This document shows, one piece after another, positions 575 through 9,518 of a stretch of 51,352 nt of DNA. Each line of letters begins with the position of its first letter. The first letter of the stretch is position 1. The position numbers and the translations under genes are program-made. Under the pieces are notes generated by a model, which saw only the letters and a list, made by a program, of their open reading frames with translations, had not been told where the DNA came from and made no database searches. Origin of the DNA: Gammaproteobacteria bacterium (lineage in GTDB: Bacteria; Pseudomonadota; Gammaproteobacteria; DSM-19610); assembly GCA_030621785.1 (NCBI GenBank), contig JAUXGZ010000003.1, positions 1-51,352 of the forward strand. Reading direction: 5' to 3'.

Positions 575-805
575 CAACAAGCTGACAGCCCTGAACCGCA
601 CCTGGCAGCCTCCATTTCCCGAAATTCCGGCCGACAAGCTCCCTGTATCCCGGAATGGCACAAAGTTTGCGGTTTTTCCGGCAGCCGACAACAGAAATGT
701 GATCGGCTTCATAACCCGCCTGTGACCGGTATGGCAATCACCGTCGCAGTAGCGGGACATACTGCACGTGGGCAGCATTCGTTGTCCGGGACGCCGGGAG
801 GGCGT

Positions 806-1327
806 ATGAAAATTTGTTCCAGAATCGCAGCCGGGCTGCTGCTGTGGCCTCTGCTGTGTAGCGCCGAACCATCCGCGCCGCCGGACCCGGGCTTATCCGA
901 ACAGGTACAGGACCTGAAAAAGCAGGTACTGGAACTCAATCGCGACCTGTTCCTGCTCGAGGAGGAACTGCTGTTTCCCTCCAACACCCAGGTATCGGTA
1001 TTCGTATCCATGGACGTCGGCGAATTCTTCGCACTCGACTCGGTCAAGCTGAAGATCGACGGCAAGGAAGTAGCCGATTACCTGTACACCGAGCGAGAAG
1101 TGAAGGCGCTGGTACGTGGCGGCGTGCAACGTATCCATATCGGCAACCTGCGTACCGGAGAACACGAACTGGTCGCCTTCTTTACCGGCAAGGGTCCGCA
1201 CGGCCGCGACTACAAGCGTGGTGCCACCATGAAGATCACCAAGGCACTGGGCCCAAGCTACGTTGAACTGAAAATCGTCGACAGGACCAGTAACTACCGG
1301 CCCGAATTTGCCATCAAGGAATGGTAG
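806..1327 (+). CDS. Secreted coiled-coil protein, first gene of the Agl/Glt-like operon
   Basis: The predicted protein has 173 aa: a signal peptide (about residues 1-20, ending near 'LLCSAEP'), a short heptad-like coiled coil ('LKKQVLELNRDLFLLEEELL') and a beta-rich domain beginning 'VSVFVSMD'. I chose the ATG at 806 over the ORF-track start at 722. It has a strong Shine-Dalgarno (GGGAGGG) just upstream and gives a clean signal peptide. I do not recognise a named family; similar small proteins occur beside TPR/TolQ/TolR/AgmX-type clusters. The stop overlaps the next start by 7 bases, which indicates translational coupling. Function is unknown; a periplasmic partner of the motor complex is an inference from position. 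Confidence 0.75.
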   Translation: MKICSRIAAGLLLWPLLCSAEPSAPPDPGLSEQVQDLKKQVLELNRDLFLLEEELLFPSNTQVSVFVSMDVGEFFALDSVKLKIDGKEVADYLYTEREVKALVRGGVQRIHIGNLRTGEHELVAFFTGKGPHGRDYKRGATMKITKALGPSYVELKIVDRTSNYRPEFAIKEW

Positions 1328-3183
1328 TGTCCAGGCAGCGCTTTTCGATCCCGCTACTTTTATTTCTGTTGGCATGTACGGTCGGCAGCCGGGCGGCGCC
1401 GGAACCGCCACAGCAAGTACGCGACCTGCATTATGGCGAAGTATTGTTTCATTTCTATCAGCAGGACTACTTCACCGCCATCACCCGCCTGATGATGGCC
1501 AGTGAACAGCAGCAGTTACAGCACCACGAAAACGAAGCCGAACTGCTACTGGGTGGCCTGCAGCTTTCCTACGGCATGCTCGATCAGGCCGAGGCACGTT
1601 TCCGCCGGCTGATCGGTCCTGATACCGATCCGGAAACAAAGAGCCGGGCCTGGTTTTACCTCGCCAGGATCGCGTACCAGCGCGGCTTGTTCCGCAAAGC
1701 CCGTAGCGCACTGCAGGAAGCCGGCCTGCCGGATAATCCCGGTCAACGGGCAGAACTGCTGCTGTTGACCGCCAACGTCCGTATGGCACTGGGCGAAAAT
1801 AATGAAGCGGCCGAAGCGCTGTCCGACGCACGGGCACCGGAAGACTGGCACGAATATCTGAGAATCAACCGGGGCATTGCACTATTGCGAGCCGGCCACA
1901 CCAGCGAAGGGCGCGAAGTGCTCGATCAACTGGGCCAGTCCCGCGCCGGCAACGAGGAACTGCGCGCCCTGCGGGATCGCGCTAACACCGGTCTGGGTTA
2001 CGAACTGCTGCGCGCCGGTGAAGCCGGACAGGCCCGTGACTACCTGGGCCGCGTCCGGCTGAGTGGCCCTTATATGCAGGCCGCACTGCTGGGTGCAGGC
2101 TGGGCCGACGCCGACCTGGGACACTACGAAGAAGCGCTGGTACCCTGGCTAAAATTACTCGAACAGAGCAGTTTCGACGCCCCCGTTCAGGAAGCGCAGC
2201 TGGCGGTTCCCTATGCATTTACAAAACTGGGGGATAACCAGCGCGCCATTCATTTCTATGAAGCCGCTATCGCGCACTATGACCGGCAGCAACAGGATCT
2301 GGACACAGCCATCGACAGCGTTCAGTCCGGCGCCATGCTGGCATTGCTGGATCAGGCCGATACCGGCACCTCCGGCGGCTGGCTGCACGCCAACCCCGAG
2401 CTGAAAAATGCACCGGCCGATCGCTACCTCGTCGATGTGTTGTCCGGCAACCGTTTCCAGGAAACCCTGAAAGACTACCGGGACCTTGGCTACCTGAACG
2501 TGCTGCTGGGCGAGTGGCAGGAAAATATCGGCGTTTACTACGACATGGTCGACGCGCGCCGACTGGCCTACCAGCAGCGAGAACCGCTCATCCGCGCACA
2601 ACTGGAACAAAATAGCGCCCGCTCACTGGGCGAACGATGGCAACAATACCGGCAGAAACTCGACCGGCTGCAGGCAGACGATGACCCGCAGGGCCTGGCC
2701 ACCGGCAAGGAACAGCAACAGTGGCAAATGCTTGAACAGCTTCAGGCGCGGCTGGCAGCCATGCCTGGCAACCCTCGCCAGGAAAAAATGCTGGAGCGGG
2801 CCAAATGGCTGCAAGGCGTACTCTACTGGCAGATCCAGGCAGATTACAAAACCCGGCTGTGGAAAATACGCAAACAACTCGGGGCGCTGGAAAGCGGCGT
2901 AGCGGAAGCCACGCAGCGGCACGAGCAGGTCAGCACAGCGCTCAGCAATGTCCGCAACGGTTTCGCCGGTTACGAACAGCGTATCGAGGTACTGCGCAAG
3001 CGCATCTTCGCACTGCAACCGGACATTCGTCAGGCGCGCACCGATGCCAGTGTCGTGTTACGCCAGCTGGCGCTGCAGGAACTCGAACAGCGCAGGCAAC
3101 GCCTGGCCAGTTACCGCAGTCAGGCCCGCTATGCGCTGGCCCGCACCTACGACCAGCTGGCGCATAACGGAGAACCTGGATGA
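1321..3183 (+). CDS. Periplasmic TPR-repeat protein of the Agl/Glt-like system
   Basis: The protein has 620 aa. It starts with a signal peptide ('FSIPLLLFLLACTV') whose Cys is not followed by a typical lipobox context, so a soluble periplasmic product is likely. Many helical TPR-like repeats follow, for example 'AELLLGGLQLSYGMLDQAEARF' region motifs and 'AWFYLARIAYQRGLFRKA'. The last third (about residues 440-610) is charged and probably coiled coil. It overlaps the gene before it by 7 bases and the next by 4 (ATGA). TPR proteins of this size next to TolQ/TolR-type channels are part of Agl/Glt-like envelope machines, where they serve as scaffolds. The TPR assignment is firm; the role is inferred from context. 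Confidence 0.78.
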   Translation: MVVSRQRFSIPLLLFLLACTVGSRAAPEPPQQVRDLHYGEVLFHFYQQDYFTAITRLMMASEQQQLQHHENEAELLLGGLQLSYGMLDQAEARFRRLIGPDTDPETKSRAWFYLARIAYQRGLFRKARSALQEAGLPDNPGQRAELLLLTANVRMALGENNEAAEALSDARAPEDWHEYLRINRGIALLRAGHTSEGREVLDQLGQSRAGNEELRALRDRANTGLGYELLRAGEAGQARDYLGRVRLSGPYMQAALLGAGWADADLGHYEEALVPWLKLLEQSSFDAPVQEAQLAVPYAFTKLGDNQRAIHFYEAAIAHYDRQQQDLDTAIDSVQSGAMLALLDQADTGTSGGWLHANPELKNAPADRYLVDVLSGNRFQETLKDYRDLGYLNVLLGEWQENIGVYYDMVDARRLAYQQREPLIRAQLEQNSARSLGERWQQYRQKLDRLQADDDPQGLATGKEQQQWQMLEQLQARLAAMPGNPRQEKMLERAKWLQGVLYWQIQADYKTRLWKIRKQLGALESGVAEATQRHEQVSTALSNVRNGFAGYEQRIEVLRKRIFALQPDIRQARTDASVVLRQLALQELEQRRQRLASYRSQARYALARTYDQLAHNGEPG

Positions 3184-5966
3184 AGCACCACGCACGTCTG
3201 CTGGTGCTGACTCTGGGGCTGGCAGCTACCGGCTGCTCTTCCCTGTCAGAACACAATGACGCCACCATCAGTTCGCTCGAAAGTCCGGAACTACCGGAGG
3301 TGACGGCAGCCACGCCGCAGGACAACCGCGCAGCCGCCATGCGTCACTACCAGGCATTTCTTGACGAATCTTCCGATAACCGCTTTGTTCCCGAGGCCAT
3401 GCGCCGACTGGCCGACATCTACCAGGCCGAGGAACAGGAAGCTGTCATGCAGGGTACTTCCCTGCCCGGCAGCACAAATTCGCGCGCCGCAGAACTGTAC
3501 GCAGAACTGCTGCAGCGGTTTCCGCAACACGAGCGCAACGACAGCGCCCTTTATCAGCTGGCCCGCGCCCATGAACAAAGTGGCGACCTGCAGCCCTCCA
3601 TGCTGGCGATGACCCGCTATTCCACCGACTATCCCGGCGCCAACAGGTACGACGAGGTCCAGTTCCGCCGTGGCGAGTACCTGTTCACCCGGCGTGACTA
3701 TGCCGGCGCCGAGCTTGCCTACCTGGCAGTACTCGACCGGGGCACGGATTCCGTATTTCATCGTCAGGCGCTGTACAAGATCGGCTGGGCACGCTTCAAG
3801 CAGGACCACTACGAAACAGCACTGGATGCCTACATACAGTTGCTGGACGAGAGCATTGTCACGCATGCCTCGGCAAGCTTGCCGGATAATCTGGAACGTG
3901 CCGAACAGGAACGCGTCGAGGACACCCTGCGCGCAGTCAGCCTGAGTTTTTCCTACCTTGGTGACAGCACGGAAATCCGCAATTACTTCAGCAACCGCGG
4001 TCCGCGGGAATACGAGCCACTGCTGTACGCAAAACTGGCCGCCCTGTACCTGAGCAAGGAACGCTACACCGATGCCGCCGAAAGCTACCGGCTGTTTGCC
4101 CGGGTACATCCACAGCACCGGGAAGCACCCCTGTTCCAGTCGCGGGTAATCGATGTCTTCAAACAGGCCGGATTCAGTAGTCGGGTACTGGAAGAAAAGC
4201 AGGCCTTCGTGGAACGCTATCAGCCCGCCAGCGATTACTGGAAGGAACGCGACCCGGCGGCGGCCACCGATGTCATGCGCCAGGTACAACGCCACCTTGC
4301 CGATGTAGCGCAGCACTACCATGCCCGGGCGCTGGAAGTGAAAAACACTGCCGGCTGGGATGCAGCCGGGAAATGGTACCGCCTGTACCTGTCATCGTTC
4401 CGCAACAGCGAACGCGCCCCCTACATGAACTTTCTCTACGCAGAGTTGCTGACCAGTGCCGACAGGGATGCACAGGCAGCGGCCGAATACGAACAGACTG
4501 CTTATGCATACGGCAGCTACGACAAGGCGGCGGAAGCAGGCTATGCAGCGGTGCTCGCCTACCGAAAGCACGAGGCCAGGGTGGACGCGCAGCACAGACC
4601 CGATTGGCACCGACGCTCCATTGACAGCAGCCTGCGCTTTGCCGCCGCGTTCCCCACACACGAATATGCGCTTCCGGTGCGCACCCTGGCTGCCCGGCAG
4701 CTGTATGTGCTGGGTGATTATCAGGCCGCGATCGAAGCCGCCCGGCCGGTGAGTATCGATACCCGGGCATCACAGAAACTGCGCACCACAGCCTGGACGG
4801 TTATTGCCCATGCACAATTTGATCTGCATGACTTCGAACAAGCCGAAGCTGCCTATCAGCAGGTACTGGCACAACCCGGCCACAAGAAAAGCGAGTATGC
4901 AAAGCTGCAGGAGAAACTTGCCGCCAGCATTTACAAGCAAGGTGAACAGGCACGCGAGCGGGGCGAGCTGAACATAGCCGCGCAGCACTTCCTGCGTATT
5001 GCCGGCGCGGTACCCGCATCCGGCATCAATACCACCGCCCAGTACGACGCCGCAGCCGCGTATATCGCGCTGAAGAACTGGCCCGATGCAATCCGTATTC
5101 TGGAACGCTGGCGTCAAAACAATCCGCAGCACCAGCTGAATACCGATGTAACCCGCAAGCTCGCAGTCCTCTACCAGGAGAACAAACAGCCGGTGCAGGC
5201 GGCGGCCGAGTTCGGGCGCATCGCTGAGCGCGAAAAGGATCCGGCACTCCGACGCGAAGCCCTGTGGACCATGGCCGGTCTCTACGAACAGGCTCGTATG
5301 GACAGACAGTCCATTACGGCGTGGAAGAACTACATCCGGCAGTTCCCGCAACCGCTGGAGCCATCCCTGGAAGCGCGCTACAAACTGGTATTACTGTACG
5401 GCAAAGCCGGCGTCACCGACAAACAGCGCTACTGGCAAAAACAGATCATCGCAACCGATCGGAACGCCGGGCGGCAACGCTCCGATCGCAGCCGCTTCCT
5501 GGCGGCACACGCGCAGCTTGCCCTGACCGCGGCAGATCTTGCTGCCTACCAGGCAACCCGACTGCGTGAACCCCTGAAGAAAAATCTGGCGCGCAAGCAG
5601 AAATACCTGCAGGCAAGCATCAAGGGTTACAAGGCCGCCGCCGCTTACCAGGTATCGATGGTGACCACACAGGCCACCCATGAAATCGGCACACTGTATC
5701 GTGACTTCGGCAAGGCGCTGATGGAATCCGAGCGGCCGGGCGGGTTAAATGCCGAGGAACTGGAGCAATACGAAATACTCCTGGAAGAACAGGCCTATCC
5801 GTTCGAGGAAAAAGCTATCGCAGTCTACGAAACCAACGCGCAGCGAATCCCCGCCGGCATATACGACAAGTGGGTGCGCAAAAGCATGGCGTCACTGGCC
5901 GAACTGATGCCGGTACGTTACGCCAAACAGGAAAGAGGTGAGAAATTTGTCGCCGTTTTACAATAA
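3180..5966 (+). CDS. Large TPR-repeat lipoprotein of the Agl/Glt-like system
   Basis: The protein has 928 aa, with an N-terminal lipobox ('LAATGCSS') predicting a lipid-anchored protein. The residue after Cys is Ser, compatible with outer-membrane sorting. Tandem TPR motifs fill almost the whole chain, such as 'ALYQLARAHEQSGDLQPSM', 'ALYKIGWARFKQDHYETALD' and 'AWTVIAHAQFDLHDFEQAE'. The start overlaps the previous stop as ATGA. It is the largest protein of the operon and resembles the TPR lipoproteins found with AglQRS-type motors in Myxococcus and relatives. An outer-membrane scaffold that receives force from the inner-membrane channel is the likely role, inferred from context. Confidence 0.8.
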   Translation: MKHHARLLVLTLGLAATGCSSLSEHNDATISSLESPELPEVTAATPQDNRAAAMRHYQAFLDESSDNRFVPEAMRRLADIYQAEEQEAVMQGTSLPGSTNSRAAELYAELLQRFPQHERNDSALYQLARAHEQSGDLQPSMLAMTRYSTDYPGANRYDEVQFRRGEYLFTRRDYAGAELAYLAVLDRGTDSVFHRQALYKIGWARFKQDHYETALDAYIQLLDESIVTHASASLPDNLERAEQERVEDTLRAVSLSFSYLGDSTEIRNYFSNRGPREYEPLLYAKLAALYLSKERYTDAAESYRLFARVHPQHREAPLFQSRVIDVFKQAGFSSRVLEEKQAFVERYQPASDYWKERDPAAATDVMRQVQRHLADVAQHYHARALEVKNTAGWDAAGKWYRLYLSSFRNSERAPYMNFLYAELLTSADRDAQAAAEYEQTAYAYGSYDKAAEAGYAAVLAYRKHEARVDAQHRPDWHRRSIDSSLRFAAAFPTHEYALPVRTLAARQLYVLGDYQAAIEAARPVSIDTRASQKLRTTAWTVIAHAQFDLHDFEQAEAAYQQVLAQPGHKKSEYAKLQEKLAASIYKQGEQARERGELNIAAQHFLRIAGAVPASGINTTAQYDAAAAYIALKNWPDAIRILERWRQNNPQHQLNTDVTRKLAVLYQENKQPVQAAAEFGRIAEREKDPALRREALWTMAGLYEQARMDRQSITAWKNYIRQFPQPLEPSLEARYKLVLLYGKAGVTDKQRYWQKQIIATDRNAGRQRSDRSRFLAAHAQLALTAADLAAYQATRLREPLKKNLARKQKYLQASIKGYKAAAAYQVSMVTTQATHEIGTLYRDFGKALMESERPGGLNAEELEQYEILLEEQAYPFEEKAIAVYETNAQRIPAGIYDKWVRKSMASLAELMPVRYAKQERGEKFVAVLQ

Positions 5967-6549
5967 ATTCTGCATCGCCGTACTCACTGCCGTGCTACTG
6001 GGTGGATGTACCGGCAGCATGGTAAAACCGGACGCAGGGAGTACGCCACAAGCCGCCACCAAACTGCCGCGCGCATACGAACAGGCACTGGGCCTGATGC
6101 GTACCGGCGACTACCCGGCAGCCATCCCCGCACTGCAGGCCTTCATCGAGGAGCAGCCGGAACTGGCCGGTCCCCGGGTCAATCTCGGCATTGCTTTCCG
6201 CCAGACCGGCCAACATGACAAAGCTCTGCAAGCACTGCACGAAGCCGTGCGACTGAACCCTGACAGTGCCACCGCCCATCATCAGCTGGGTATCGAGTAT
6301 CGCGAACAGGGCCGCTTCGAGTCAGCACAGCAAGCCTATCAACAGGCGCTGACGCTGGATGCGGATTACGCCCTGGCGCACCGCAATATCGGCATCCTGT
6401 ACGACCTGTACCTGCAACAGCCGGTGCTGGCACTCGATCATTACCGCAGCTACCTGGAACTGGAAACTGAACCTGACAAAACCGTCAACCGATGGGTAGT
6501 CGACCTGGAGCGCCGCACCGCCAGTGCGCAGGCGAGTGCCAAACCATGA
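5938..6549 (+). CDS. Small TPR lipoprotein of the Agl/Glt-like system
   Basis: The protein has about 200 aa, with a lipobox ('VLLGGCTGS') and four or so canonical TPRs ('ALGLMRTGDYPAAIPALQAF', 'ALQALHEAVRLNPDSATAHH', 'AYQQALTLDADYALAHRN'). The ORF-track start is a GTG overlapping the previous gene by 29 bases. A TTG at 5947, placed six bases after an AGAGGTGA sequence, is an equally good start and gives the same signal peptide. It ends in an ATGA overlap with the next gene. The context suggests a lipid-anchored assembly factor for the same envelope complex, much as PilF/PilW serves type IV pili; that comparison is inference. Confidence 0.75.
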   Translation: MRNLSPFYNKFCIAVLTAVLLGGCTGSMVKPDAGSTPQAATKLPRAYEQALGLMRTGDYPAAIPALQAFIEEQPELAGPRVNLGIAFRQTGQHDKALQALHEAVRLNPDSATAHHQLGIEYREQGRFESAQQAYQQALTLDADYALAHRNIGILYDLYLQQPVLALDHYRSYLELETEPDKTVNRWVVDLERRTASAQASAKP

Positions 6550-6833
6550 AAGCGCGTCAGCACCGGGTATGTGGCTATCTGACTGCACTGCTGCTGTTCT
6601 GCAGTCTTGCCCCGGCAACGGCCACCGAACGCCTGGAGCTCGATGGCATGGCCGTCATCGGTAATCGTGAGCTCCCCAAGGCTCTGTTCATTGTTCCCTG
6701 GAAAGACCCGGGTGCCGCCGAAGCACCCAACCGGCCGGTCAACAGCCTGGTCAATGAGACCCTGCAACCCGTCGATCCGGAAGTTTTCCGCAGAAAACTT
6801 CAATATTTCGACACAGTTCACAAAACAGACTAA
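6546..6833 (+). CDS. Small secreted protein of the Agl/Glt-like operon, unknown family
   Basis: The predicted protein has 95 aa, starting at the ATG that overlaps the previous stop (ATGA). The longer ORF-track start at 6492 would overlap far into the preceding gene and break the signal peptide. Residues 1-27 form a clear signal peptide ('LTALLLFCSLAPATATE'). The mature part is short and contains 'LDGMAVIGNRELPKALFIVPW', a pattern recurring in proteins next to TonB/AgmX-type clusters. No catalytic motif is visible. It immediately precedes the ExbB-like gene (53-base gap with a strong Shine-Dalgarno). The function is unknown; involvement in the same complex is an inference. Confidence 0.65.
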   Translation: MKARQHRVCGYLTALLLFCSLAPATATERLELDGMAVIGNRELPKALFIVPWKDPGAAEAPNRPVNSLVNETLQPVDPEVFRRKLQYFDTVHKTD

Positions 6834-6886
6834 AGCTGCCGGGCTTTGGCCCCGAAAACCCGTACGTTACTCATAAGGAGTTCAGC

Positions 6887-7531
6887 ATGGATATCTATTC
6901 ATCACTCGTTCAGTTCTTCCAGTCCGGCGGACTGTTCATGTACCCCATCGTGGTAGTGCTGGCTCTCGGGGTCGCTATCGCCGTGGAACGCTACGTCTAT
7001 CTGACGGCCGCACGCGCCACCAACCAGCGTGTGTGGAAACAGGTAATGCCGCTGCTGATGGAAGGCAAGTACAGTCAGGCAGTCGCCATCACCGAGAAAT
7101 CCCGGGCAGCGCTGGGACGCATTCTGCGCTACGGACTGAACCGTGCAGATGGCTCACAAAAACGTGACGACGTGGAAGTGGCCATGGAGGAAGGCCTGAT
7201 GGAGACCGTGCCACGGCTTGAGAAACGCACTCATTACCTGGCTACCTTCGCCAATATCGCCACCCTGCTGGGACTGCTCGGCACCATCATGGGACTGATC
7301 CAGGCCTTTACCGCGGTTGCCAATGCCAATCCGGCGGAGAAAGCCGACATGCTGTCTGCCAGTATCTCGGTAGCCATGAACACCACGGCCTTTGGCCTCA
7401 TGGCCGCCATCCCGCTACTGCTGATCTACACTGTGCTGCAGACCAAGACCACCGAGCTGGTCGATAGCCTGGAAATGGCTTCCGTGAAATTCCTCAATAT
7501 CCTGACCGAGCGTAAGGGAACCGCTGCCTGA
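6887..7531 (+). CDS. MotA/TolQ/ExbB-like proton channel subunit (AglQ-like)
   Basis: The protein has 214 aa and the three-helix topology of the TolQ/ExbB family: TM1 about residues 14-38, a long cytoplasmic loop, TM2 about 117-142 ('LATFANIATLLGLLGTIMGL') and TM3 about 159-184 ('MNTTAFGLMAAIPLLLIY'). The 'LLGLLGT' and 'TTAFGL' signatures that line the proton path are intact. It has an excellent Shine-Dalgarno (AAGGAG, six bases before ATG) and shares one base with the next start (TGATG). In this family five copies surround two TolR/ExbD-type subunits and use the proton motive force to drive a periplasmic rod. Placement with TPR lipoproteins and an AgmX-like protein points to an Agl/Glt-type rather than a Tol or siderophore system. 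Confidence 0.9.
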   Translation: MDIYSSLVQFFQSGGLFMYPIVVVLALGVAIAVERYVYLTAARATNQRVWKQVMPLLMEGKYSQAVAITEKSRAALGRILRYGLNRADGSQKRDDVEVAMEEGLMETVPRLEKRTHYLATFANIATLLGLLGTIMGLIQAFTAVANANPAEKADMLSASISVAMNTTAFGLMAAIPLLLIYTVLQTKTTELVDSLEMASVKFLNILTERKGTAA

Positions 7532-8061
7532 TGAAACGGCGCTGGCGCAAACAACACACCGGGGCTCCGGCCGAAGTAAATATTACGGCCTTCATGAACC
7601 TGATGGTCATCCTGGTACCGTTCCTGCTGATCACTGCCGTGTTCTCCCGCATCACCGTGCTAGACCTGAACCTGCCGGCGCCCGGAAGCGCACAACCACT
7701 GTCTGCAAGGGACGAACCGGAACTGCAACTGGAAATTACCGTGCGCGAAGAGGCTATCGAAATCGGCGACCGCAAGCGCGGGCTACTGAAGTTTATCCCG
7801 GTAGCAAGCGACGGCAGTCACCTGGTGAAAGTATCAACGATGCTGCAAAGCATCAAGGCACGCTACCCCGACAAGCAGGATGTAACCCTGCTGCTGGAGA
7901 GCGATATCACCTATGAGCGGGTGGTGGAAATGATGGATACCCTGCGCGTCGCACGGGTCGAGCAGGAAGACGGGGCTGTCTTTGCTGAACTGTTCCCTGC
8001 CATTTCCATCGGCGACGCGCCGGTTGTGGATCTGCGCACCGCTAAAAGGAACCGCAAATGA
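7531..8061 (+). CDS. TolR/ExbD-like protein 1 with Asn in place of the membrane Asp
   Basis: The protein has 176 aa with a single N-terminal membrane segment (about residues 18-38) and a periplasmic domain, as in TolR/ExbD. The family pattern around the membrane Asp normally reads like 'N-[VIL]-TPL-x-D'. Here the matching stretch is 'VNITAFMNLMVILVPFLL', so the proton-carrying Asp position is Asn23 and the Pro is Ala. The periplasmic part has the usual 'VLDLNLP' start and a C-terminal dimer region ('VTLLLESDITYERVVEMMDTL'). It is coupled to its neighbours by TGATG and ATGA junctions. A heterodimer with the next gene product is likely; in that case only the partner supplies the titratable Asp. 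Confidence 0.87.
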   Translation: MKRRWRKQHTGAPAEVNITAFMNLMVILVPFLLITAVFSRITVLDLNLPAPGSAQPLSARDEPELQLEITVREEAIEIGDRKRGLLKFIPVASDGSHLVKVSTMLQSIKARYPDKQDVTLLLESDITYERVVEMMDTLRVARVEQEDGAVFAELFPAISIGDAPVVDLRTAKRNRK

Positions 8062-8558
8062 AGCAGTCGCGGCGCGCCAGACGCATGCAGCGTCACCACC
8101 AGCGCAACAAAGGCACACCAGCCTTTAACCTGGTGTCACTGATGGATATCTTTACCATCCTGGTATTTTTTCTGCTGGTCAACTCCGGTGAAGGTGAAGT
8201 GCTGCCGAGCACCAAAAGTGTCGAACTGCCGGAATCTATCTCTGAACAGAAACCCGAACAGAACGTTGTTGTGATGGTCACCAGAAAAGACGTCCTGGTG
8301 CAGGGTACACCGGTAGCCACACTTGCTGCGATCGACAAGCGAGACCGCGCGGCGATCAACTCGCTGCTGGGTGCGCTGCAGGCACAACAAAAGGCCCGCA
8401 TCCTTGGCAACAGCAAGGCCGCGGTGCCTGCCGTCACTATCATGGGCAGCAGGCAGATTCCCTATCACCTGCTGAAATCTGTCATGGCCGCCTGCACCGA
8501 AGCGGGTTACGGCAAGATTTCACTGGCGGTATTGCAGAAACCGGCGCAGGAAAGCTAG
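8058..8558 (+). CDS. TolR/ExbD-like protein 2 with conserved membrane Asp
   Basis: The protein has 166 aa, TolR/ExbD-like, with one membrane helix ('FNLVSLMDIFTILVFFLLV'). It keeps the Asp (residue 30) used for proton translocation in this family. An Arg/His-rich cytoplasmic N-terminus precedes it, and a periplasmic domain follows ('VELPESISEQKPEQNVVVMV'). The ATGA overlap with the previous gene and the three-base gap to the next show tight coupling. Two TolR-type genes after one TolQ-type gene is the aglQ-aglR-aglS arrangement known from Myxococcus gliding motors, which supports assignment to that branch rather than to a standard ExbBD pair. Confidence 0.88.
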   Translation: MKQSRRARRMQRHHQRNKGTPAFNLVSLMDIFTILVFFLLVNSGEGEVLPSTKSVELPESISEQKPEQNVVVMVTRKDVLVQGTPVATLAAIDKRDRAAINSLLGALQAQQKARILGNSKAAVPAVTIMGSRQIPYHLLKSVMAACTEAGYGKISLAVLQKPAQES

Positions 8559-8561
8559 CTT

Positions 8562-9518
8562 ATGTCGATGGTCTATTCCCATTCCCTGCTGCTGCCCTGG
8601 TCGGTCTCGTCAGAAGATCAGCGCCGTTTTCGCGGGATACTGGTCGGCATGCTGGTGTTTACGATGGTGCTGGGGATCACCATTCCCCTGTTGCCGGTAT
8701 TCAAGGCAGCCGCACAACAGGAGGTTCAGCTTCCACCGCGGATAGCCAAACTGATTTTCGAGAAACGTACCGAACCGAAACCACCACCGAAGCCCGAGCC
8801 GGTAAAAAAAGCCGAACCCAAAGCGGATAAAAAAGCATCGAAGAAACCTCTGCCGAAAAAGAAAGTGCCGCCGAAAGTAGCAAAGAAACCGGCGCCCAAA
8901 CCAAAAGTGGATGTCGTCGAACAGGCGCGCAAAAAAGCTTCCAGCGCCGGCCTGCTTGCCATGTCGGATGCGCTGGCTGATCTGCGCGACCAGTCTGTCG
9001 ATGAGTTGCAGGGAGGGAAACGCCTGAGCAACAGCGGCACCAAAGCCAACCGCACCGAGCGTTCCCTGCTTAGCTCAAGAGTCGGTTCTGCCAGCAAGGG
9101 CATCAATACCGCTGCCCTGAGCCGTGACACCGGTTCCACACAACTGGCTGGCCGCACCGCGACCCAAGTAAAAAGTTCCATCGATGCGCTATCACCGAAC
9201 CGAAAATCGCAAGGCAACCGTCGCAGTGCTTCGCGTAGCATCGAGGAAATCCAGATCGTGTTCGACAAAAACAAGAGCGCTATCTACAGCATGTACAACC
9301 GCGCGCTGCGCAAGGATTCAACCCTGCAGGGCAAGCTTGTTCTGCAACTAACCATTGCACCGTCCGGCAAGGTTACCGGCATCGAACTGGTTTCCAGCGA
9401 GCTCGGCGATCCGGCACTGGAACGCAAACTGGTGCAACGCATCAAGATGATCAACTTTGGTGCCAAAGCAGTAGGTAGCGTCACACTCACCTATCCCATT
9501 GACTTCCTGCCGGCATAA
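8562..9518 (+). CDS. TonB-like / AgmX-PglI C-terminal domain protein
   Basis: The protein has 318 aa. Residues about 22-47 form a membrane helix ('GILVGMLVFTMVLGITIPLL'). Residues 65-118 are a Pro/Lys-rich, TonB-like periplasm-spanning stretch ('EPKPPPKPEPVKKAEPKADK'). Residues about 225-318 match the AgmX/PglI C-terminal domain pattern ('SIEEIQIVFDKNKSAIYSMY', 'GKLVLQLTIAPSGKVTGIEL'). As I recall the domain, it usually carries a pair of Cys that can form a disulphide; here Met and Lys occupy those places. It would carry motion from the channel complex to the TPR lipoproteins at the outer membrane. That role is inferred from homologous systems; the domain order is seen. Confidence 0.85.
   Translation: MSMVYSHSLLLPWSVSSEDQRRFRGILVGMLVFTMVLGITIPLLPVFKAAAQQEVQLPPRIAKLIFEKRTEPKPPPKPEPVKKAEPKADKKASKKPLPKKKVPPKVAKKPAPKPKVDVVEQARKKASSAGLLAMSDALADLRDQSVDELQGGKRLSNSGTKANRTERSLLSSRVGSASKGINTAALSRDTGSTQLAGRTATQVKSSIDALSPNRKSQGNRRSASRSIEEIQIVFDKNKSAIYSMYNRALRKDSTLQGKLVLQLTIAPSGKVTGIELVSSELGDPALERKLVQRIKMINFGAKAVGSVTLTYPIDFLPA

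Follow-up and report, generated by a model that had tools for sequence, protein, structure and literature searches.

Published models of ExbBD, TolQR and MotAB place two axle subunits in the channel of the wheel, and the Asp residues of these subunits are used alternately, with the axle turning by 36 degrees per proton (PMC12215075, PMC12583513); the initial annotation of the locus considered here had described this model as it stands in the literature. The family to which this locus belongs keeps exactly one of the two Asp. In the window (the whole analysed stretch of 51,352 nucleotides, part of a 75% complete gammaproteobacterial MAG), the gene of an ExbB-type wheel subunit is followed by two ExbD-type genes, D1 and D2, and D1 has Asn at the motor position. 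Hence the question is whether D1 and D2 are the two arms of one axle with a single proton site, or whether they belong to separate rings or serve different roles.

The three genes are part of a block of nine genes on the forward strand, extending from 722 to 9518, the order of which is kept in about 40 of the 45 long relatives. The nearest relatives in public records carry the labels Thiohalobacter and Thiogranum. The genes are listed below; fractions give the long loci with the same gene in place.

722..1327 (+): secreted protein of about 170-200 aa, first gene of the block, with no match to a Pfam family; 40/45
1321..3183 (+): TPR protein, GltC-like by position, with Pfam TPR matches; 41/45
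3180..5966 (+): large TPR lipoprotein-like protein, GltD-like by position, with Pfam TPR and YfiO matches; 43/45
5938..6549 (+): TPR lipoprotein, GltE-like (NCBIfam GltE, E=7e-16, score 58.1 against an equivalog cut-off of 225); 44/45
6549..6833 (+): small secreted protein of 94 codons, start uncertain, with neither a Pfam nor an NCBIfam match; 44/45
6887..7531 (+): ExbB/AglR-type wheel subunit (PF01618, 106.5 bits)
7531..8061 (+): D1, ExbD-type axle subunit without the motor Asp, 176 aa (PF02472, 53.5 bits)
8058..8558 (+): D2, ExbD axle subunit with the motor Asp, 166 aa (PF02472, 58.4 bits)
8562..9518 (+): GltG/AgmX-like TonB-type force transducer (NF033768, 69.5 bits, cut-off 40); 44/45

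The transducer consists of one TM segment, a Pro/Lys-rich linker and an AgmX/PglI C-terminal domain. The GltC and GltD models of the Pfam/NCBIfam profiles have no match in the block, in which three TPR proteins sit in the corresponding place, and the scores against the tolQ, exbB and tolR equivalogs of NCBIfam stay below the cut-offs (69.8 of 221, 52.6 of 206 and 28.5 of 127, respectively). Judging from sequence, this is a core complex of the Agl/Glt type in a gammaproteobacterium. It is a motor of its own, as two more ExbD genes, of the ordinary kind, lie elsewhere in the genome.

The Agl/Glt core complex (AglR, AglQ, AglS; GltC, D, E, G) is known from Luciano et al. 2011 (PMC3169522), where the cluster is reported to occur in gammaproteobacteria, its function there being called unknown; the motor Asp did not turn up in a term search of the article. 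The present operon resembles this complex in having one ExbB-type gene, two adjacent ExbD-type genes after AglR, TPR proteins and a transducer with the AgmX/PglI domain. It differs in the Asn of D1, whereas AglQ and AglS are both said to carry Asp in a 2022 review, according to which it is not known whether the two pair (PMC9389320); given this account, the Myxococcus motor may be free of the D/N asymmetry. A further difference is that no gliding partner genes are shown at the present operon. Thus, the motor class and the gene set are known, and what is new is the fixed D/N asymmetry, of which we found no report in the open-access papers searched.

The initial annotation assigned Asn23 and an Ala in place of the usual Pro to D1, and Asp30 to D2, and both the codons and an alignment of the two proteins together with 32 ordinary ExbD sequences bear this out: D1 Asn23, D2 Asp30 and the family Asp share one column. 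The codons are the following.

7588-7590 (+): GCC, D1 Ala20
7597-7599 (+): AAC, D1 Asn23, motor-Asp column
8145-8147 (+): GAT, D2 Asp30, motor-Asp column

The usual Pro is also absent from D2, which has Ser27 there. The D1 protein sequence is EVNITAFMNLMVILVPFLLITAVFSRI and that of D2 is FNLVSLMDIFTILVFFLLVNSG; both score above the Pfam ExbD (PF02472) cut-off of 25.4 bits. Another acid of D1 aligned with the Asp, considered in the initial annotation as a finding that would overturn its reading, was looked for and is not there. The D1 helix contains no substitute acid, the only nearby acidic positions being -8 and -6, both of which are also acidic in ordinary ExbD, and no conserved substitute acid was found in the wheel helices of 298 relatives. 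Seven residues past Asn23, D1 has a near-invariant Pro30 (7618-7620; 291/298), absent from D2 and from ordinary ExbD, which is a possible D1-specific helix kink.

Both proteins are predicted with confidence by AlphaFold2 (pLDDT 85.5 for D1, with Asn23 within the predicted helix 18-43, and 87.8 for D2). In Foldseek comparisons the predicted fold of D2 matches periplasmic ExbD structures (8pek with E=5e-5), and that of D1 matches 8pek more weakly, with probability 0.99 and E=8e-3; no close sequence relative was found among solved structures. The helix is among the best-conserved parts of D1, and the ExbD N-terminal signature E-x-N-I-T is kept.

The first collection scan, in which one search word included the D1 Asn, yielded 80 loci; the search was redone with ExbB as the query against whole genomes (369 from the class, 399 from the phylum, and in addition those of several orders). 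In all 341 operons having both genes the order is ExbB-D1-D2; five loci without D1, D2 or both were taken as cut by contig or fetch ends and left uncounted. Among the 298 non-redundant operons, the motor column of D1 holds Asn in 283, Ser in 14 and Asp in one, and that of D2 holds Asp in all 297 readable cases. Thus, the suggestion that the Asn might be fixed across homologous loci holds in the sense that D1 is non-acidic in 297 of 298. The reversed pattern, with Asp in D1 and a neutral residue in D2, was never met among these operons, and ordinary ExbD of the same class has Asp in 32 of 32 proteins.

A bias from the Asn-containing search pattern was considered and rejected, as the tally without the pattern-found set gives the same result (226 operons: Asn in 211, Ser in 14, Asp in one). 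The Ser, encoded by AGT or AGC, replaces the D1 Asn in two groups (L215/L297-L305 and L172/L373-L380), and the D2 Asp is kept in both; hence the conserved feature of D1 seems, from these sequences, to be a neutral polar residue.

On the tree of the ExbB partner, D1 Asn23 underwent three residue changes against 73 synonymous AAC/AAT switches of its own codon, with 31 changes at the neighbouring D1 Asn17 and none at D2 Asp30. A single transition would turn Asn into Asp, and yet Asp is missing, so selection keeps it out; by this codon evidence, Asn23 is a selected residue, neither frozen nor an error. In the family tree, which has long branches and in which deep placement is rough, D1 and D2 form two clades (support 100/99 and 100/97), and ordinary ExbD groups with neither. 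The single Asp-bearing D1 (operon L028, the same as L204) is nested inside the D1 clade, and thus the loss of Asp looks ancestral and the Asp of this D1 is best read as a return.

The L028 operon is the only one with Asp in both partners, and both also have Pro at -3. Its ExbB departs from the relatives at several near-invariant pore positions (T126M, S157A, T166N, P176T), as if the whole motor had changed together. The operon is a naturally occurring D/D case for comparison inside the D1 clade.

Several features speak for D1 and D2 acting jointly. The initial annotation described the genes as adjacent and coupled, and they are always adjacent (341/341) and often overlapping: in the window the ATG of D2 overlaps the TGA of D1 as ATGA, the same overlap occurs in 164 of 298 operons, and nearly all D2 starts lie at most 40 bases from the D1 stop. 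There is one ExbB gene per D1-D2 pair. An acidic residue at -8 is present in 288 of 298 D1 proteins vs 4 of 298 D2 proteins, and Thr at -4 in 297 vs 22. The dimerisation-strand motif ending in Pro is found in 289 of 298 D1 proteins, and D2 has an LP motif of its own, with Pro58 in 298 of 298; these Leu-Pro-ending motifs match the intermolecular strand described for ExbD (PMC10771500). Thus, by the alignments, the features of ExbD are retained by D1 and D2 in a complementary fashion.

In the direct-coupling analysis D1-D2 was the most covarying gene pair, with 13 of the top 30 couplings, compared with 6 for ExbB-D1, 8 for ExbB-D2 and 2, 5 and 7 for the GltE-like control pairs, although the analysis had 158-182 effective sequences and some of the top couplings are topologically impossible. 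When operons were re-paired with near relatives, no inter-gene coupling was left in the top 30. The covariation thus mildly favours a contact between D1 and D2. Natural D1-D2 fusions were absent from the loci. From synteny, gene overlap and the modest covariation we infer a D1/D2 heterodimer.

In the wheel, Thr133 and Thr167 of the pore Thr rings are invariant (298/298), and Val162, at the position of E176 in ExbB and E173 in TolQ, is never acidic in the 298 relatives (Val, Ile, Thr or Leu). This TM3 Glu is the proposed proton attractor of ExbB and TolQ, and of the two TolR Asp residues in TolQR, one is H-bonded to the Thr ring and the second is turned toward the proton path (PMC12583513). In MotB, Asn at the motor site serves as a mimic of the protonated Asp (PMC9389320). 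As Asn and Ser can bond the Thr ring but release no proton, D1 would be the neutral arm and D2 the cycling arm.

Hence the operon rather likely encodes a proton motor of Agl/Glt core type, with five ExbB/AglR subunits surrounding one helix of D1 and one of D2 (5:1:1) and with one titratable Asp. D2 Asp30 would be the sole titratable proton site on the axle, and D1 Asn23 (sometimes Ser) would lie against the Thr133/Thr167 ring as a permanently neutral, H-bonding stand-in for a protonated Asp. Protons would be loaded and unloaded only as Asp30 passes a subunit, resulting in no more than five protons per turn rather than ten or, alternatively, in a limited back-and-forth stroke of the axle with no alternating 36-degree steps, and the motion would reach the outer-envelope TPR proteins through the GltG-like protein. 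The broader claim, that this is a natural single-proton-site motor with an obligate heterodimeric axle of one Asp and one neutral arm, with a different step size or a reciprocating stroke, fixed in the gammaproteobacteria bearing the operon, we hold to be about evenly balanced. What speaks against a D/N axle is M. xanthus AglQ D28N, which loses proton conductance and function (PMC3858216): a relative of this motor would be intolerant of such an axle, if AglS has its Asp.

The proposed axle can be compared with other motors. ExbB-ExbD-TonB and TolQ-TolR-TolA share with it a wheel with invariant Thr rings, the ExbD fold and a TonB-type transducer, but here the two axle subunits are unlike and the wheel is without the TM3 Glu; Asp in both axle subunits, as in proton-carrying ExbD/TolR, is found here in D2 and not in D1. 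The MotA-MotB stator belongs to the same 5:2 ion-driven wheel-and-axle family with an essential Asp (PMC9389320), but there the axle is a MotB homodimer, with Asp in both copies. For TolQ-like rings whose axle proteins are paired vWA proteins (2025 study, PMC12204202), mixed axle pairs are predicted and the genes lie side by side, but both vWA partners are described with Asp.

Alternatively, there could be two kinds of ring, an active one of ExbB with a D2 homodimer and an inert one of ExbB with a D1 homodimer, serving as a brake or a peptidoglycan anchor. The mimicry of a protonated, non-cycling state by Asn (PMC9389320) and the dimerisation motif that D1 retains for itself would fit this arrangement, but the strict pairing of the genes, the frequent ATGA overlap and a D1-D2 covariation above the controls point the other way, and complementary retention of motifs follows more easily from one mixed dimer; we consider two rings unlikely.

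Somewhat less likely still, D1 could be an accessory subunit of ExbD fold outside the pore, for instance a linker between the wheel and the GltG-like transducer. Such a role would agree with the missing catalytic residue and with the fold match to ExbD being weaker than that of D2, whereas the high conservation of the D1 TM helix and the kept E-x-N-I-T signature argue for a place in the pore, and the role of the transducer is already filled by the GltG-like protein. A further arrangement may consist of D2 homodimers with D1 elsewhere.

It is quite improbable that the D/N pair turns in the ordinary way, with a second Asp that all such motors can do without and an Asn that was tolerated after duplication. 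The exact residue is indeed not fixed, as a few lineages have Ser, but the few residue changes against the many synonymous ones (3 vs 73), the one return to Asp in 298 operons, the Asp of all 32 ordinary ExbD proteins and the dead engineered AglQ D28N (PMC3858216) are not what mere tolerance would leave. A sequencing error or a decayed gene, the former also considered in the initial annotation together with Asp in homologues, is ruled out by Asn or Ser in 297 of 298 relatives, the open frame and the confident predicted fold.

A large and widespread natural family with one Asp makes the need for both sites and the stepwise turning testable with native proteins and not with crippled mutants. D1 and D2 can be labelled separately, which gives a fixed orientation handle, impossible with a homodimer. 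The D/N asymmetry also brings into focus what role the Agl/Glt core may have in gammaproteobacteria that do not glide.

No relatives were found on viral contigs. On plasmids, two Vibrio records carry a distant variant with Ser in D1 and Asp in D2. In one of them (plasmid pMBL96 of Vibrio alginolyticus; L226, 1-9727), the D1 with Ser is annotated as hypothetical. This distant motor adjoins genes for a large Ig-like protein, an outer-membrane barrel and a LapG-like cysteine peptidase, a neighbourhood that suggests action on a surface adhesin.
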